Origin: Mesoterricola sediminis
Lineage (GTDB): Bacteria > Acidobacteriota > Holophagae > Holophagales > Holophagaceae
Assembly: GCF_030295425.1 (NCBI RefSeq)
Contig: NZ_AP027081.1
Location: 1,736,001 to 1,800,000 of the forward strand
DNA length: 64,000 nucleotides
Reading direction: 5' to 3'
Of the stretch, positions 31,351 through 40,924 are shown piece after piece. Each line of letters starts with the position of its first letter. Within the stretch, counting starts at the first letter, position 1. A model generated the notes under the pieces. The model was not told the DNA's origin. It saw only the letters and a program-made list of their open reading frames with translations, and ran no database searches. A program made the position numbers and the translations under genes.

Positions 31351-32493
31351 TCATGGCGCGGGGTTGAGGCTGGGCAGCAGCCTCTCCAGGCGCCGCACCG
31401 CCTCCCGGGAGCCCTCCCACATCATGAGGGCGCGCGCCTCGGCCGGGGAGCACCAGCGGTACTCGCTGTGCTCGTCCAGGGCGAGGCGGACCTCGCTGGC
31501 GGGATCCACCTCGACGTGGAAGCAGGTCTCCGTGTTGAAGCGGGGGGGGCCCGGGGGCAGGCCCAGGACGGCGGGGTCCATCCAGAAGCTGTGGGAGAAG
31601 TCGAGGGGGAGCAGGTTCCCGGAAAGGCCGGCCTCCTCCATGAGCTCCCGGCGCGCGGCCGCCTCGGGGGTCTCGCCCGGCTCGACCATGCCGGTGACGC
31701 TGGACCACCAGAGGCCGTGCCCCGGGGTCCGGAGCATCACGAGGACCTCGGGTCCGGAGGGGCCCCGGCGCCAGGTGAGGGCCGAGATGCTGGCGCTGTG
31801 GGCGGGCACGGGGAGCAGGTCCAGGCCCAGGCAGTCGCCCAGGTGGCGCTGGAGGCTGTCGGCGGCCTCGTCCCAGGTGGGGCAGGCGTCCCCCAGGAGG
31901 GACTTGAGGCTGCAGACGCCCTTGTCCGTGATGCCGCAGGGCGTGATCCACCGGAAGTGGGCCAGGTCGGGGGCCACGTTGAAGGCGATGCCGTGGGTGG
32001 TGATCCAGCGGTTGAGGTGGATGCCGAGGGCGCCCAGCTTCTCGAGCCCGCGGGGGGTGTCCACCCAGACCCCGGGGAAGCCCGGGAGGCGGTCCGCGGT
32101 CACGCCGAAGTCGGCGGCGCAGCGGATCATGGCCTCCTCGAGCCCCCGCACGAGCCGGCCCACGTCCTCGCGGCCGCCCTTGAGGTTGCACACGGGGTAG
32201 ACGACGATCTGGCCGGGGCCGTGGTAGGTGACCTGGCCGCCGCGGTCCGTCTCGAAGACCTCCACGCCCCGCGACTCCAGGAAGGCGTCCGTCACGTGGA
32301 TGTCGGAGCGGGTGGCGTTCCGGCCCAGGGTGAAGACCGGGTTGTGCTCGAGCACCAGGACCTGGTCAGGGCTGGAGCCGTCCTTCACGTACTCCGCCAT
32401 GCCCTTCTGCATGCGGAGGCCTGCGGCGTAGAGAACGTGGCCCAGCCTCCGCAGCTGGGCGGGCCGGGACTGGGTGAAGCCGATGTCCGTCAT
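31351..32493 (-). CDS. lipB: Octanoyltransferase LipB fused to a Nudix hydrolase
   Basis: A 380-aa fusion. Residues 1-225 are LipB: RGGQVTYHGPGQ (84-95), the Lys of KLGALG (Lys152) and the acyl-accepting Cys in ITPCGI (Cys186). LipB moves octanoate from acyl carrier protein to lipoyl domains such as that of the E2 encoded at 1908. Residues 235-375 are a Nudix domain with the full box GX5EX7REUXEEXGU (268-290, GMVEPGETPEAAARRELM...). The two halves are in one uninterrupted frame with a normal linker near 225-235. Nudix substrate unknown; a role in CoA or nucleotide clean-up is a guess. Confidence 0.9.
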   Translation of the reverse strand: MTDIGFTQSRPAQLRRLGHVLYAAGLRMQKGMAEYVKDGSSPDQVLVLEHNPVFTLGRNATRSDIHVTDAFLESRGVEVFETDRGGQVTYHGPGQIVVYPVCNLKGGREDVGRLVRGLEEAMIRCAADFGVTADRLPGFPGVWVDTPRGLEKLGALGIHLNRWITTHGIAFNVAPDLAHFRWITPCGITDKGVCSLKSLLGDACPTWDEAADSLQRHLGDCLGLDLLPVPAHSASISALTWRRGPSGPEVLVMLRTPGHGLWWSSVTGMVEPGETPEAAARRELMEEAGLSGNLLPLDFSHSFWMDPAVLGLPPGPPRFNTETCFHVEVDPASEVRLALDEHSEYRWCSPAEARALMMWEGSREAVRRLERLLPSLNPAP

Positions 32494-34348: not shown

Positions 34349-35583
34349 ACGTCCTCGTCGCCGGGGGCGGCGCCGCGGGTCTGATCGCCGCCTGGCGCGC
34401 GGCGGGCCTGGGCCATGCGGTCACGCTCCTGGAGGCGAACCCCCGCCTGGGGATCAAGGTGCGCATCAGCGGCGGCGGCCGGTGCAACGTGACCCACGCC
34501 GGCGGCCCCGCCGAGGTGCTGGCCGCCTTTCCCAAGGCCCAGGCCCGCTTCCTGCGGCCGGCCCTGCACGCCTTCCCCGGCACCCGGTTGCTGGAGCTTC
34601 TGGCCGCGGAGGGCATCCGCACCGAGGCCCGGGAGAACGGACGGGTCTTTCCCGTGGACGGGCCGGGTTCGGCCCACCGGGTGGCGGACGCCCTGGAGCG
34701 GCTGGCCCGCGCGGCGGGGGTCCGGATCCGCACCGGCTGCCGGGTCCAGGGCCTGGACGGGACGCCGCCGCGGCTGCGCGCCCTGGTGCTGGAGGGCGGG
34801 GCGCGCCTGGTCGCCGATGTTTTCATCCTGGCCACGGGCGGGGCCAGCTACCCCCAGACCGGCACCCGGGGCGAGATGGCCGGCCTCCTGGCGGGCCTCG
34901 GCGTGCCCGTCGCCCCCTGGGCGCCGGCCCTGGCGCCCATCCCCCTGCGCGAACCCCGGCCCGCCTGGGAAGGGGTGGCCCTGCGCGGAGGGGTGCTCAG
35001 CCTGCGTCCGGCGGCGGGGCAGCGGCCCCTGGCCCGGTTCACCGGGGACCTCCTCTTCACCCGCACCGGGGTCTCCGGACCCGCCGCCCTGGAACTGAGC
35101 CGGGAGACGGAGGCCGCCCGCAGGGCGGGCGGAGCCTGGCTGGACGTCGCGCTGACGGCGTCCTCCGCGGAGGCCGTGGAGGCCGAGCTCCTGGGGCTCC
35201 AGACGGCCAACCCCCATCTGGGCGTGCGCACCTGGCTGGGGCGCCACCTGCCCGAGCGGCTCGCCGACCCGGCCCTGGCCGGCCTACCGGCGGACCAGCG
35301 CCTCAAGGACCTGCCCCGGGCCGGGCGGCGGGCCCTGGCGGGTCTGGTGACGGCCTTCCCCCTGGGCGCGCCCGGCCCCGTGGACCTGGCCAAGGGGGAG
35401 GTGGCGGCCGGGGGCGTGCGCCTCGCCGCGGTGGATCCCGCCACCCTGGCCGTGCGTGGGTGGGAGAACCTGCGGGTATGCGGGGAGCTGCTGGACATCG
35501 ACGGCCCCGTGGGGGGCTACAACCTCCAGGCGGCCTTCAGCACCGGCTTCCTGGCGGGGAGCCTCAGCCCTGGTTCTTCTTGA
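34345..35583 (+). CDS. HI0933/BaiN-type FAD-dependent oxidoreductase
   Basis: A 412-aa flavoprotein. The dinucleotide-binding GGGAAGLIAA starts at about residue 7, GGGRCNVTH follows at about 47, and ATGGASYPQTG and a C-terminal DIDGPVGGYNLQAA complete the HI0933 pattern. No ATG, GTG or TTG exists in the relevant part of the frame. The only plausible start is CTG at 34345, which has GGAGG four bases upstream and a CTGA overlap with the regulator stop, mirroring ATGA coupling elsewhere. Substrate unknown. It converges on and overlaps the CheZ-like gene by 20 nt. Confidence 0.8.
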   Translation: MNVLVAGGGAAGLIAAWRAAGLGHAVTLLEANPRLGIKVRISGGGRCNVTHAGGPAEVLAAFPKAQARFLRPALHAFPGTRLLELLAAEGIRTEARENGRVFPVDGPGSAHRVADALERLARAAGVRIRTGCRVQGLDGTPPRLRALVLEGGARLVADVFILATGGASYPQTGTRGEMAGLLAGLGVPVAPWAPALAPIPLREPRPAWEGVALRGGVLSLRPAAGQRPLARFTGDLLFTRTGVSGPAALELSRETEAARRAGGAWLDVALTASSAEAVEAELLGLQTANPHLGVRTWLGRHLPERLADPALAGLPADQRLKDLPRAGRRALAGLVTAFPLGAPGPVDLAKGEVAAGGVRLAAVDPATLAVRGWENLRVCGELLDIDGPVGGYNLQAAFSTGFLAGSLSPGSS

Positions 35584-36559
35584 ACTGGGCGATGATGTCG
35601 TCGACGCTTTCCTTCTTGTCGTCGGCCTCCAGGGTCGTCTCGAAGATGCGCTCCTGGGTGGCGGTGCTGCGGCGCTCGAAGATGCCCTCGGGGGAGACCT
35701 GGCCCTCGAAGCCCTGGATGTTGAAGATCGCGAGCAGGCGGCCGAGGCCCTCCTTGAACTGCTTGAGGAGCAGGACGACCTTCTCGACCTTCTGGCGGGT
35801 GATGTCCTGGAATTGAAGGGTGTTCAGGATCTCGAAGGCCTCGTCGGAAATGGTGGCGAGGGGCTGGAGGCAGGCGTCCAGGTCCCCGGCGGGCGGCGGG
35901 GTCTTCATCTGGTGCTCGAAGACGAACTCCAGGATCTCCTGGGCCAGCTGGGCCGGATCGGCGCCCTGGGAGGCCTTCTGCATGAAGCCGTCCATCTGGG
36001 CGTGGAAGGCGGCCTGGGAGGCCTGGACGGCCTGGAGGACCTTCACGGACGCCTTGATGGTGGCCTGGGCCTCGTCGCTGGCGGCCATGAGCACGTCGAG
36101 GCGGTTCATGACGGTCTGGGTGGCCCGCTCCGTGTCGGCGGTGATGGCGTCGAGCTGGGCGGCGAGTTCGGGCACCTGGGTGCTCTGGTGCTTCACCGAG
36201 CTGTCCAGCTGCTGGAGGTTGAGCAGGGTGGAATTGATGCTCTGCACCAGGGCCCCGAGCTCGCCCTTGGCCTGGATGTCGATCTGCTGGAAGATCTTGC
36301 CGTTGGCCATGTCCTCCGCGGCCTTGGCCAGGCGCTGGAGCTCGGTCTGGCTCTCCAGGCGGATCTCGCTCCGGATGGTCTGGACCAGGTCGAGGAGGGT
36401 GTTGAGGCGGGTGTCCAGGGCCTCGTTGCGGGCGCGGAATTCCTTCAGCAGCCCTTCGGGCTGGATGTCCTCCGCCGGCTCGACGATGGGCTCGGCAGGG
36501 GGCTCGGGGGCGGGTTCGGGGGCGGGTTCGGGGGCGTTGAGAGCTTCCTGGTTGTCCAT
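35564..36559 (-). CDS. CheZ-like phosphatase with HAMP-like segment
   Basis: A 331-aa soluble protein. After a Pro/Glu/Ala-rich tail (1-35) comes a helical region whose segment at about 71-121 (LAKAAEDMANGKI...ELGALVQSINSTL) resembles a HAMP domain without membrane helices. Residues 205-280 match the CheZ four-helix bundle: LQFQDITRQKVEKVV (249-263) carries the catalytic Gln251 in the position of the CheZ FQDLTGQ motif. The C-terminus SVDDIIAQF (318-326) resembles the CheZ peptide that binds phospho-CheY. It would dephosphorylate a CheY. It lies next to a DUF4388 gene on the same strand. Confidence 0.8.
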   Translation of the reverse strand: MDNQEALNAPEPAPEPAPEPPAEPIVEPAEDIQPEGLLKEFRARNEALDTRLNTLLDLVQTIRSEIRLESQTELQRLAKAAEDMANGKIFQQIDIQAKGELGALVQSINSTLLNLQQLDSSVKHQSTQVPELAAQLDAITADTERATQTVMNRLDVLMAASDEAQATIKASVKVLQAVQASQAAFHAQMDGFMQKASQGADPAQLAQEILEFVFEHQMKTPPPAGDLDACLQPLATISDEAFEILNTLQFQDITRQKVEKVVLLLKQFKEGLGRLLAIFNIQGFEGQVSPEGIFERRSTATQERIFETTLEADDKKESVDDIIAQFKKNQG

Positions 36560-36584: not shown

Positions 36585-37400
36585 TCAGGGGGCGGGCCGG
36601 ACCGTTACGTCCATTCGTTCGGGCAGACCCCACAATTGCATAAGTTCTTTTGGAATGCCAATGCTGCGATCGTCCATGTCCCGGACGAAGCGCACCTGCT
36701 CCACCGCCGGCCCCTCGGGCCAGAGGATGCGGACCCGGGCGATGGCGCCGTAGGGCCCCAGGGTCTTCCACCGGGCCTCGTGGGAGGCGGCCAGTTCCAC
36801 ATGATCGGACCTGCGGAAGATGCCGCCCTTGAGGGCCGTCGCCCGCAGGGCCGCGTCGGGCTCGAGGAGCTTGAGGCGTCCCGCCTGCTTGAGCTGGGCG
36901 CAGGCCTGGAGCACGCTCACCTCGCTCTGCTCGGAGACGGCGATGACCTCCTGGAAGGTGCGGTAGCCGTCCAGGAAGGGGAGGCAGCGCCGGTCCTCCT
37001 GGAAGATCCGCAGGCCCTCGGTGAGCCGGGGCTCCTGGAGGGTGGGCCAGGGCACGACGTTCAGGCTCGGGAAGATCGCCCGGAGGTGCCGGCGGGAATC
37101 CGAGGTGCGGGCCGCCTCCATGAGCAGGTCGGGCACGCTGCGGTGGATGGTGTTCGGCGCCTTGAACTTGGTGCTCACGAACTCGAACTCGCCCCGGTCC
37201 CACTCCAGGATCTCGAAGGCGGCGGACTCGCCGCGGGCCTCGGGGGATTCGGCGTGGACGACGTCGCCGTTCAGCACGTAGAGGGTGCCCGTGGCCGCGC
37301 CCTGGGTGACCAGCAGCTTCCCGGTCTTGCGGTTGGCGCCGAGGAGCTGCACGACGTCCATCAGGGAAATGCTCTGCAGGCTGCCGCGGAGGGTGCTCAT
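36585..37400 (-). CDS. DUF4388 (PATAN-type) domain protein
   Basis: A 271-aa cytoplasmic protein. The N-terminal DUF4388 domain (about 1-100: LRGSLQSISLMDVVQLLGANRKTGKLLV) is typical of regulators in gliding and twitching bacteria. The rest is helical with a short winged segment (about 150-185), then a C-terminal beta-rich part. No enzyme motif. It sits 25 nt upstream of the CheZ-like gene, so both probably act in one motility-signalling pathway. Confidence 0.78.
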   Translation of the reverse strand: MSTLRGSLQSISLMDVVQLLGANRKTGKLLVTQGAATGTLYVLNGDVVHAESPEARGESAAFEILEWDRGEFEFVSTKFKAPNTIHRSVPDLLMEAARTSDSRRHLRAIFPSLNVVPWPTLQEPRLTEGLRIFQEDRRCLPFLDGYRTFQEVIAVSEQSEVSVLQACAQLKQAGRLKLLEPDAALRATALKGGIFRRSDHVELAASHEARWKTLGPYGAIARVRILWPEGPAVEQVRFVRDMDDRSIGIPKELMQLWGLPERMDVTVRPAP

Positions 37401-37437: not shown

Positions 37438-38166
37438 TCACAGCCCGCCTTCGTTGACGGCCTCGACCATCTCCCGCACGGCCCTGTCCAGACCCACGAG
37501 GATGGCCCTGCCGATGATGGCGTGGCCGATGTTGAGCTCCTCGACCTCGGGGATCGCGGCCACGGGGCCCACGTTCTGGAGGCTGAGGCCGTGGCCGGCG
37601 AGGACCTTCAGGCCCAGCTTCGCGGCGAGGCGGCTGGCCTCCCGCAGGCGGGCCAGCTCGGGGGCGGGATCCGCGCCCGGCGTGATGTCGGCGTAGATGC
37701 CGGTGTTGAATTCGACGGCCTCGGCCTCGAGCTTGGCGGCCATCTTCACCTGCTCCTGGACGGGGTCGATGAAGAGGCTCACCCGGATCTCGGAGGCGTG
37801 GAGCTCCCGGATGATGGAGCGCAGGTGCGCGTGGAGGAAGAGGGCATCCAGGCCCCCCTGGGTGGTCAGCTCCTCCCGGGTCTCGGGGACGAGGGTGACC
37901 CACGCGGGCTTGATGGGGATGACGGCCTCCATGGCCTCGGCGGTGGCCGCGCACTCCACGTTGAGGGGCACCGCCAGCACCTCGCGGAGGATCCTCACGT
38001 CCCGCTCCTGGATGTGGCGCCGGTCGGCGCGCAGGTGCACGGTGATGCCGTGGGCGCCCGCGCTCTGCGCCAGCAGGGCCGCGGCGACAGGTTCGGGCTC
38101 GCGCCCGGCCCGCGCCTGGCGGATGGTCGCGACATGATCGATGTTGACACCAAGGCGTACGGCCAC
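37438..38166 (-). CDS. pdxJ: Pyridoxine 5'-phosphate synthase
   Basis: A 242-aa TIM-barrel protein. Characteristic segments are LGVNIDHVATIRQAR (N-terminus), GITVHLRADRRHI, FIDPVQEQVKMAA and the C-terminal ELNIGHAIIGRA. It condenses 1-deoxyxylulose-5-phosphate and 3-amino-2-oxopropyl phosphate into PNP in the DXP-dependent B6 pathway. It follows glmM by 30 nt on the same strand, a common arrangement. Confidence 0.95.
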   Translation of the reverse strand: MAVRLGVNIDHVATIRQARAGREPEPVAAALLAQSAGAHGITVHLRADRRHIQERDVRILREVLAVPLNVECAATAEAMEAVIPIKPAWVTLVPETREELTTQGGLDALFLHAHLRSIIRELHASEIRVSLFIDPVQEQVKMAAKLEAEAVEFNTGIYADITPGADPAPELARLREASRLAAKLGLKVLAGHGLSLQNVGPVAAIPEVEELNIGHAIIGRAILVGLDRAVREMVEAVNEGGL

Positions 38167-39565: not shown

Positions 39566-40920
39566 CTACAACTCAGGGAGCGGCGGTTCCAGGGCGAGGC
39601 GGTAGGCTACCTCGCGCAGGGCGATCCCGTCCATCCACGCGTTGCGGGGCTGCCCCCAGGGGCGCCAGCCGTTCACTTCATAAAACCTGCGGGCATGGCC
39701 GTTGCGCTCCAGGACCCACAGGGCGGCCTCCCGGAACCCGTCCGCCCGGAGGGCCTCCGTGGCCCGGTCGAGGAGGGCCTTGCCCAGGCCCTGGCCCCAG
39801 GCCTCGGGCAGCAGGTAGATGGCGTGGACCTCCCCCAGGCGCGCGGGGTCGACGCCGGGCTCCCGGCAGGGGCCCGCCACGGCGAAGCCCTGGACGGCGC
39901 CGCGGGCCTCCAGGACCCAGAACCGGTGGGCGGGAGGGGCGGAGGCCATGGCTTCCAGGAACGCGGCCTCGCGGCCCGGCTCGGAAAGGGCCTCCAGGAT
40001 CGGGTTGGGGAGGATGCCGCGGTACGTGGCGCGCCACGAGGCCACCTGCACGTGGGCGAGGGCGGGGGCGTCCTCCGGCAGGGCCGGGCGGATGCGGGGC
40101 ACGGTCACCGCGTGGGTGCGGAAGACCCGGTAGCCCAGGCCCTCGGCCTCGCGGTGGAGCCGCGCCGCCAGCGGATCCCGCTCCAGGACCGGCATGGCCG
40201 GGACCCCGGCCTTCCAGGACAGGAAGCGCTTGCGGGAGATGCCGATGCAGAAGCCCGCGGCGGGCCAGTCCAGGGCCTCCGGCAGCTGCGGGAGGGCGTT
40301 CCAGAGCGCCAGGTCCTCCAGGAAGGTGGTGCCGAAGCCGAAGCCCGGGTCCAGGAGGATCCGGTCCGGGGCCACGCCGGCCGCGAGGACCCGGTCCCGG
40401 ACCTCGACCAGCTCGGCGATGGCCGCGGCGGCGTCCCGGTGCTCCCCGCCGCCGTAGGGGGGCATGACGAGCGCGTCCCCCTCCAGGCGGCTGCGCATGG
40501 CGATGAGGCCGCAGCCCCCGTTGACGGCCACGTGCAGGAGGGCCGGATCCCGGAAGCCCGTCACGTCGTTGATGACGGCCACGCCGGCCCGCAGGCCCCG
40601 GGCCGCCACCTCCGGATGGCGGGTGTCGAGGCTGACCGGGAGCTCCGGCAGGTGCGTCCGGAGCAGGGCCAGGACCGGCTCGAGGCGGGCCCACTCCTCG
40701 GCGGGGCCCACGGGCCGCGCCCCGGGGCGGGTGCTCTCCGCGCCCACGTCCAGCATGCGCGCGCCCTGGTCCGCCAGGCTCCGGGCCTGGGCCAGGGCGG
40801 CCCCGGGATCCTGGAAACGCCCCCCGTCGCTGAAGGAGTCGGGGGTCACGTTGAGGATCCCCATGGGAAAGGGGCCGGCCAGATCGATCCGGCCGGCCCC
40901 CGTCAGCCAGGTCCCCGGGG

Positions 40921-40924
<4 letters not shown>
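39566..40924 (-). CDS. folP: Dihydropteroate synthase fused to a GNAT acetyltransferase
   Basis: A 452-aa fusion. Residues 1-270 are dihydropteroate synthase: [15 protein letters not shown] (21-35), [26 protein letters not shown] and GISRKRFL (about 247). This is the sulfonamide target of folate synthesis. Residues 277-445 form a GNAT domain starting [16 protein letters not shown], with acetyl-CoA loop [11 protein letters not shown] and the C-terminal RFYEVNGW. One continuous frame joins them. The start is TTG 40924, overlapping the ftsH stop (TTGA); no ATG fits because the first internal ATG would remove a folate-site strand. The GNAT substrate is not known. Confidence 0.9.

Follow-up and report, generated by a model that had tools for sequence, protein, structure and literature searches.

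The gene described here lies in a 64,000-nucleotide stretch of the Mesoterricola sediminis genome (the window), on the minus strand at positions 35564 to 36559, and starts with ATG to encode a protein of 331 aa, for which we use the name HAMP-CheZ after the two domains that it joins. The assignment rests on the open reading frame, its Pfam matches, its codon composition and 39 homologous loci. In a genome of 71% GC, the GC content at its three codon positions is 0.68, 0.36 and 0.96, which is typical of a coding frame and makes the overlapping plus-strand frame most likely spurious. Three genes follow one another on the same strand: pdxJ (37438–38166; Pfam PF03740, 309.5 bits), a conserved upstream neighbour that serves as a marker of the locus, then a DUF4388 gene (36585–37400; Pfam PF14332, 80.8 bits), and, 25 bases further on, the HAMP-CheZ gene. 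We take DUF4388 to be the PATAN domain; PATAN and the pilus motor are treated in the available part of a published study (PMC10519157). Two other minus-strand frames of the window also combine domains, namely a 380-aa frame with a lipoyl ligase A/B (LipB-like) and a NUDIX domain (31351–32493), and a 452-aa frame with a TTG start that has a pterin-binding (FolP-like) domain and a GNAT acetyltransferase (39566–40924).

Both domains of HAMP-CheZ were recognized by curated profiles. Residues 74–117 (36209–36340, minus strand) match HAMP (Pfam PF00672) with 26.7 bits against a cut-off of 25, and residues 100–282 match CheZ (Pfam PF04344) with 32.8 bits against a cut-off of 30.7, the core of the latter being a predicted helical hairpin of residues 118–281 (35717–36208, minus strand; AF2). 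In A1, an alignment of the 39 homologues and the window protein, CheZ was matched by 40/40 proteins and HAMP by 37/40 (E ≤ 0.01), and two of the rows (L040 and L041) are truncated ahead of HAMP by contig ends. An earlier note, made from the letters of the DNA, had proposed a merger of a CheZ-like phosphatase with a HAMP-like region, and searches with both models bear this out, the CheZ hit included. Its view that some 200 HAMP-like residues precede the phosphatase has to be revised, as Pfam confines HAMP to residues 74–117 and aligns residues from 100 onwards with CheZ. The score against the NCBIfam CheZ equivalog NF041271 is far under the cut-off (28.6 versus 350 bits); by its sequence, therefore, HAMP-CheZ is a member of the CheZ family but not the canonical equivalog.

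The AF2 model (mean pLDDT 74, pTM 0.41) predicts helices at residues 34–85, 88–197, 202–218 and 228–278, followed by a low-confidence linker and a short helix at the C-terminus, and in this prediction the second HAMP helix is continuous with the first CheZ helix (88–197). A Foldseek search with the model gave zero matches at E ≤ 0.001, a comparison that long helices make uninformative, and the matches listed by VIA-align were generic helical hairpins, with CheZ not among them. A phmmer search of PDB sequences gave nothing under E 0.016, and its matches look like chance helical likeness. When the single E. coli CheZ sequence was compared with A1, the active-site motif was correctly aligned at a probability of only 1.3, and the comparison was dropped as evidence of homology. 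Two proteins from outside the family with Pfam CheZ matches under the cut-off (L056 and L063) had no active-site motif in the frames searched and were set aside. That a coiled-coil protein merely resembles the CheZ and HAMP models by chance seems scarcely credible: the coiled-coil families SMC and Syntaxin also score weakly, but only CheZ and HAMP exceed their curated cut-offs, the full active-site motif is invariant, and the A1 profile matches two paralogues inside a che cluster.

This motif, FQDITRQ, occupies residues 250–256 (35792–35812, minus strand) and fits CheZ, as the earlier note had recognized. Its residues F250, Q251, D252, I253, T254, R255 and Q256 line up in numbering with F141, Q142, D143, L144, T145, G146 and Q147 of E. 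coli CheZ, which pairs D252 and Q256 with the catalytic D143 and Q147, and Q251 with Q142. All seven positions, Q251 and Q256 included, are invariant in 40/40 homologues. In the available text on Azorhizobium caulinodans CheZ, the phosphatase motif is DXXXQ (D165 and Q169), and the preceding Q164 is assigned to a separate AXXFQ motif (PMC7750401). The glutamine singled out in the earlier note, Gln251, is thus conserved in the homologues, and neither of the two outcomes by which the note would have been refuted occurred, but the catalytic glutamine is Q256 (E. coli Q147). At the other end of the protein, SVDDIIAQF (residues 318–326; 35582–35608, minus strand) lies in a conserved segment (mean conservation 0.86 over residues 317–329) and is by position and likeness the putative counterpart of the E. 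coli QVDDLLDSLGF end and a candidate CheY-binding peptide. We consider it highly improbable that the protein is a catalytically dead CheZ relative acting as a scaffold or buffer that binds CheY-P; the two other CheZ-type proteins of the genome, described below, could supply the activity in that case, but D252 and Q256 are invariant in 40/40 sequences.

Residues 34–73 of HAMP-CheZ (36341–36460, minus strand) form a predicted helix or coil before HAMP, on its input side (AF2). No sensor domain was found in the protein by a Pfam scan, and hydropathy gave no membrane helix, as Kyte-Doolittle means over 19 residues peak at 1.21, at residue 261 within the catalytic helix; a transmembrane helix ahead of HAMP, of the type found in histidine kinases and chemoreceptors, is likewise absent by hydropathy. 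The earlier remark that the protein has no membrane helix therefore holds, whereas its description as a sensor-gated CheZ finds no sensor to refer to. As there is neither a sensor nor a membrane part, the likeliest input to HAMP is a bound cytoplasmic partner.

Residues 40–197 are free of gaps in every row of A1 except the two that end at contig ends (L040 and L041), indicating that HAMP and CheZ are fused in a fixed register across their junction. Mean conservation, calculated over 37 rows (leaving out L040, L041 and the divergent L042), is 0.22 in the N-terminal tail, 0.68 in the coil before HAMP, 0.89 in HAMP, 0.94 in the HAMP-CheZ junction (118–158), 0.61 in the distal hairpin and 0.83 in the catalytic helix. 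HAMP and the junction are thus the most conserved stretches of the protein, which suggests that the HAMP relay and the junction are constrained at least as strongly as the active-site helix. We regard this as the main sequence argument for an action of HAMP on the CheZ bundle, the manner of which it does not indicate. It also bears on a serious rival, in which HAMP-CheZ is an ordinary third CheZ whose coil and HAMP form a module for dimerization, spacing or localization, with constitutive, ungated activity. The lack of an input domain in the Pfam and hydropathy analyses fits such a passive module, as does the account, in the available text of PMC7750401, of CheZ proteins that are localized via their own N-terminal or bundle regions. 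However, a spacer would be expected to drift, and here HAMP and the junction surpass the catalytic helix in conservation and contain no indels. A passive spacer or locator has a substantial chance of being right, somewhat short of an even one.

The distribution of the gene offers a guide to its function. The 39 loci came from scanning 84,980 species genomes for short peptide patterns, a method limited to close relatives, and most of their titles name Holophagaceae, Geothrix or Acidobacteria, other labels being few. Among 297 Acidobacteriota genomes, full-length HAMP-CheZ was found in 18, all of them in the window's family (18 of the 27 members drawn), and 23 others had partial matches only. 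Strong matches are present in 43/61 family genomes (G305 with an in-frame TAA, G310 partial), and FliM is present in 42/61. The two occur together in 41 genomes and are both missing from 17; the discordant genomes are G303 and G315 (71 and 64% complete), with HAMP-CheZ only, and G297 (89% complete), with FliM only. In Holophagaceae genomes that are at least 90% complete (n = 47), both are found in 33, neither in 14, and there is no discordant case. The Fisher values for this association (5e-12 and 3e-12) ignore kinship, and the counts are not phylogenetically independent, as the genomes without the genes belong to some three or four groups at the level of the genus. PilB-type ATPase matches were obtained in 61/61 family genomes (47 over the curated cut-off), and therefore pili do not explain the pattern.

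The DUF4388 gene, for which the earlier note had suggested a check of co-occurrence, behaves differently. A physical link is evident, since the gene lies directly upstream of HAMP-CheZ in 34 of the 37 loci that have upstream sequence (L040 and L041, at contig ends, have none); at the remaining three (L036, L038 and L039), pdxJ was found upstream and DUF4388 was not matched. The link does not extend to co-occurrence. With a score of 248 bits or more required of the neighbour, by which 52/61 family genomes have it, 38 genomes contain both genes, 4 neither, 14 DUF4388 only and 5 HAMP-CheZ only (Fisher p 0.43); G317, whose HAMP-CheZ lies near a contig edge with a partial match (L119), is scored here as DUF4388-negative. 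An obligate partnership was rejected on these counts, and DUF4388 is a neighbour, not a strict partner, of HAMP-CheZ. It is flagella, not DUF4388, that predict the HAMP-CheZ gene, and as the gene follows flagella and neither pili nor DUF4388, its substrate is most likely the flagellar CheY. Other substrates are possible, given the 133 REC matches in the genome.

One such candidate lies in many of the homologous loci. A REC-type match was found between pdxJ and DUF4388 in 18/39 loci; in L016, the one case confirmed, it is a stand-alone receiver of 125 aa (Pfam, 90.4 bits; L016:4822-5199) that overlaps the start of DUF4388, and similar Geothrix loci probably likewise have a stand-alone receiver overlapping the DUF4388 start between pdxJ and DUF4388. 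HAMP-CheZ might then act as a phosphatase on another receiver instead of flagellar CheY, either on this stand-alone Geothrix REC or on one that belongs to a pathway of pili or of DUF4388. Consistent with that, all eight stretches examined from flagella-less Geothrix (genus g2) keep pdxJ and DUF4388 and lack both the receiver and HAMP-CheZ; in L146, the one stretch examined downstream, the next genes are the same as in L012. In six other FliM-negative stretches, however, HAMP-CheZ is missing from 6/6 and the receiver is kept in L155, L157, L158 and L159; REC stands without HAMP-CheZ in 4/5 stretches of another flagella-less genus. Furthermore, the best match to the Geothrix receiver in the window's genome, of 42% identity, is in a multi-domain protein and is no clear orthologue, and the HAMP-CheZ gene tracks FliM, not DUF4388 or PilB. 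We therefore judge a non-flagellar receiver to be an improbable target.

A profile search of the window's genome with A1 revealed two more CheZ-type places, both in one che cluster (L103, G000:C1:95000-110000). By Pfam, the order of its genes is PilZ, cheY, a 187-aa CheZ, a three-CheW protein, CheA and a 311-aa CheW-CheZ protein, and this order is identical in 23/23 fetched stretches, the window's genome included. The short CheZ (P0003; L103:5818-6381) directly follows cheY and carries the motif FQDITRQ. Its N-terminus, MDQSEIDALM in the window's genome and mostly MDQSEIDALL or MDQSEIDALM across the fetched stretches, is FliM-like, resembling the start of the genome's FliM, AKILSQEEVDALL (SQEEVDALL), and is presumably a CheY-binding peptide. 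Pfam CheZ was matched by 22/23 short CheZs (E ≤ 0.01), the copy of the window's genome being under the cut-off, and the profile-profile comparison with HAMP-CheZ gave a probability of 98.3 (E 1.9e-14). The CheW-CheZ fusion (P0004; L103:10029-10964), located at about 105 kb on G000:C1 and present in 23/23 fetched stretches, has CheW at residues 22–155 and a segment with YQDIARQ towards its C-terminus. The Pfam families listed for the 23 fusions (E ≤ 0.1) do not include CheZ, and the CheZ part hence rests on the profile-profile comparison with HAMP-CheZ (probability 96.3, E 1.5e-9), on the invariant D280 and Q284, and on a predicted helical hairpin (197–244 and 252–310). HAMP was not found by Pfam in the short CheZ or in the CheW-CheZ fusion. 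The latter could keep a phosphatase attached to the array of receptors, and three CheZ-type proteins in one genome suggest an unusual, layered control of the erasure of the swimming signal.

Further features were observed around these paralogues. The protein between cheZ and cheA is 502 aa long and consists of three CheW domains (L103:6385-7893), and a protein with FHA, GAF and adenylate/guanylate cyclase domains is encoded just upstream of the PilZ-che cluster (L103:3277-4893). In another Acidobacteriota family, L091 contains a CheZ-like 214-aa minus-strand frame that begins in the manner of FliM, with MDQSEIDALLSGG, and ends in VDDIIAQF.

Taken together, we propose that HAMP-CheZ is a soluble, probably dimeric phosphatase of flagellar CheY-P, in which HAMP most likely relays the state of a partner, and we would give this reading about an even chance. 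The domain identities, the conserved motif, the fixed register, the three paralogues and the co-occurrence with FliM are shown by the data, and the lack of HAMP-CheZ at the otherwise preserved locus of flagella-less Geothrix agrees with it. Counted against it are the lack of a sensor domain and membrane helix, the low equivalog score, the low probability with E. coli CheZ, the structure searches that did not list CheZ, the kinship behind the FliM counts, the many REC matches, and the position of the gene, which in the window's genome adjoins no che gene, another CheZ being the one that adjoins cheY. From the evidence above we infer catalysis, substrate, dimer and gating alike, and gating of CheZ by HAMP is plausible. 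In the proposed dimer, the four-helix bundle of HAMP would continue into that of CheZ, with the N-terminal coil and HAMP running in register into the first CheZ helix, much as HAMP feeds the helical bundle in histidine kinases and chemoreceptors. The SVDDIIAQF peptide may capture CheY-P, and Q256, assisted by D252, would orient a water molecule for attack on the phosphate, by analogy with E. coli CheZ, the source of the mechanism of a water-orienting Gln and an assisting Asp. The phosphatase would be adjusted in activity or position by the state of a cytoplasmic partner bound to it, relayed through HAMP. The CheW-CheZ fusion could sit in the receptor array, the short CheZ is encoded beside cheY, and HAMP-CheZ is the third CheZ-type protein of the cell. 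A bolder and rather unlikely extension is that the lifetime of CheY-P is itself an input, with a partner-sensing HAMP switching one CheZ, the CheW-CheZ fusion acting in the array, and the CheZ with the FliM-like peptide acting near the motor or free. If true, the phosphatase, and not only the kinase, would be a point of control in chemotaxis.

In its usual presentation, CheZ is one simple protein that ends the signal, and control is not exerted on its activity. A lineage with three CheZ-type proteins, one joined in register to HAMP and one to CheW, is a natural test of whether signal removal is regulated, and of whether a phosphatase bundle can be driven by HAMP in the way that kinases are. 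Neither HAMP-CheZ, nor CheW-CheZ fusions, nor a set of three CheZ-type proteins was described in the titles and abstract starts that searches of open-access papers listed.

Comparison with known systems helps to place the protein. The core of E. coli CheZ is helical. Like HAMP-CheZ, that protein (NP_416395.1; Pfam PF04344) has an FQDxTxQ motif and a C-terminal acidic-hydrophobic peptide, but it comprises 214 aa without a HAMP part and is encoded beside cheY, whereas HAMP-CheZ comprises 331 aa with HAMP ahead of the core, is one of three paralogues and is not encoded beside cheY. The AXXFQ plus DXXXQ layout is common to A. caulinodans CheZ and HAMP-CheZ; the first residue of AXXFQ is T247 in HAMP-CheZ, unlike in A. 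caulinodans, where the available text describes an N-terminal helix and a four-helix bundle and does not mention HAMP (PMC7750401). Within the same genome, the short CheZ and the CheW-CheZ fusion share the class of catalytic motif and the first-helix pattern of HAMP-CheZ, and differ from it in that the former has a FliM-like N-terminus and follows cheY and the latter carries CheW. As in HAMP-CheZ, a chemotaxis phosphatase is fused to another chemotaxis module in the CheA-CheC/CheX fusions of Leptospirae, but, as far as the available part of that source goes, CheC and CheX belong to another phosphatase family and are fused to the kinase (PMC10782961). CheZ and HAMP are each known, and it is their combination, together with three CheZ-type proteins that include a CheW fusion, that seems new against the open-access titles and abstract starts listed.
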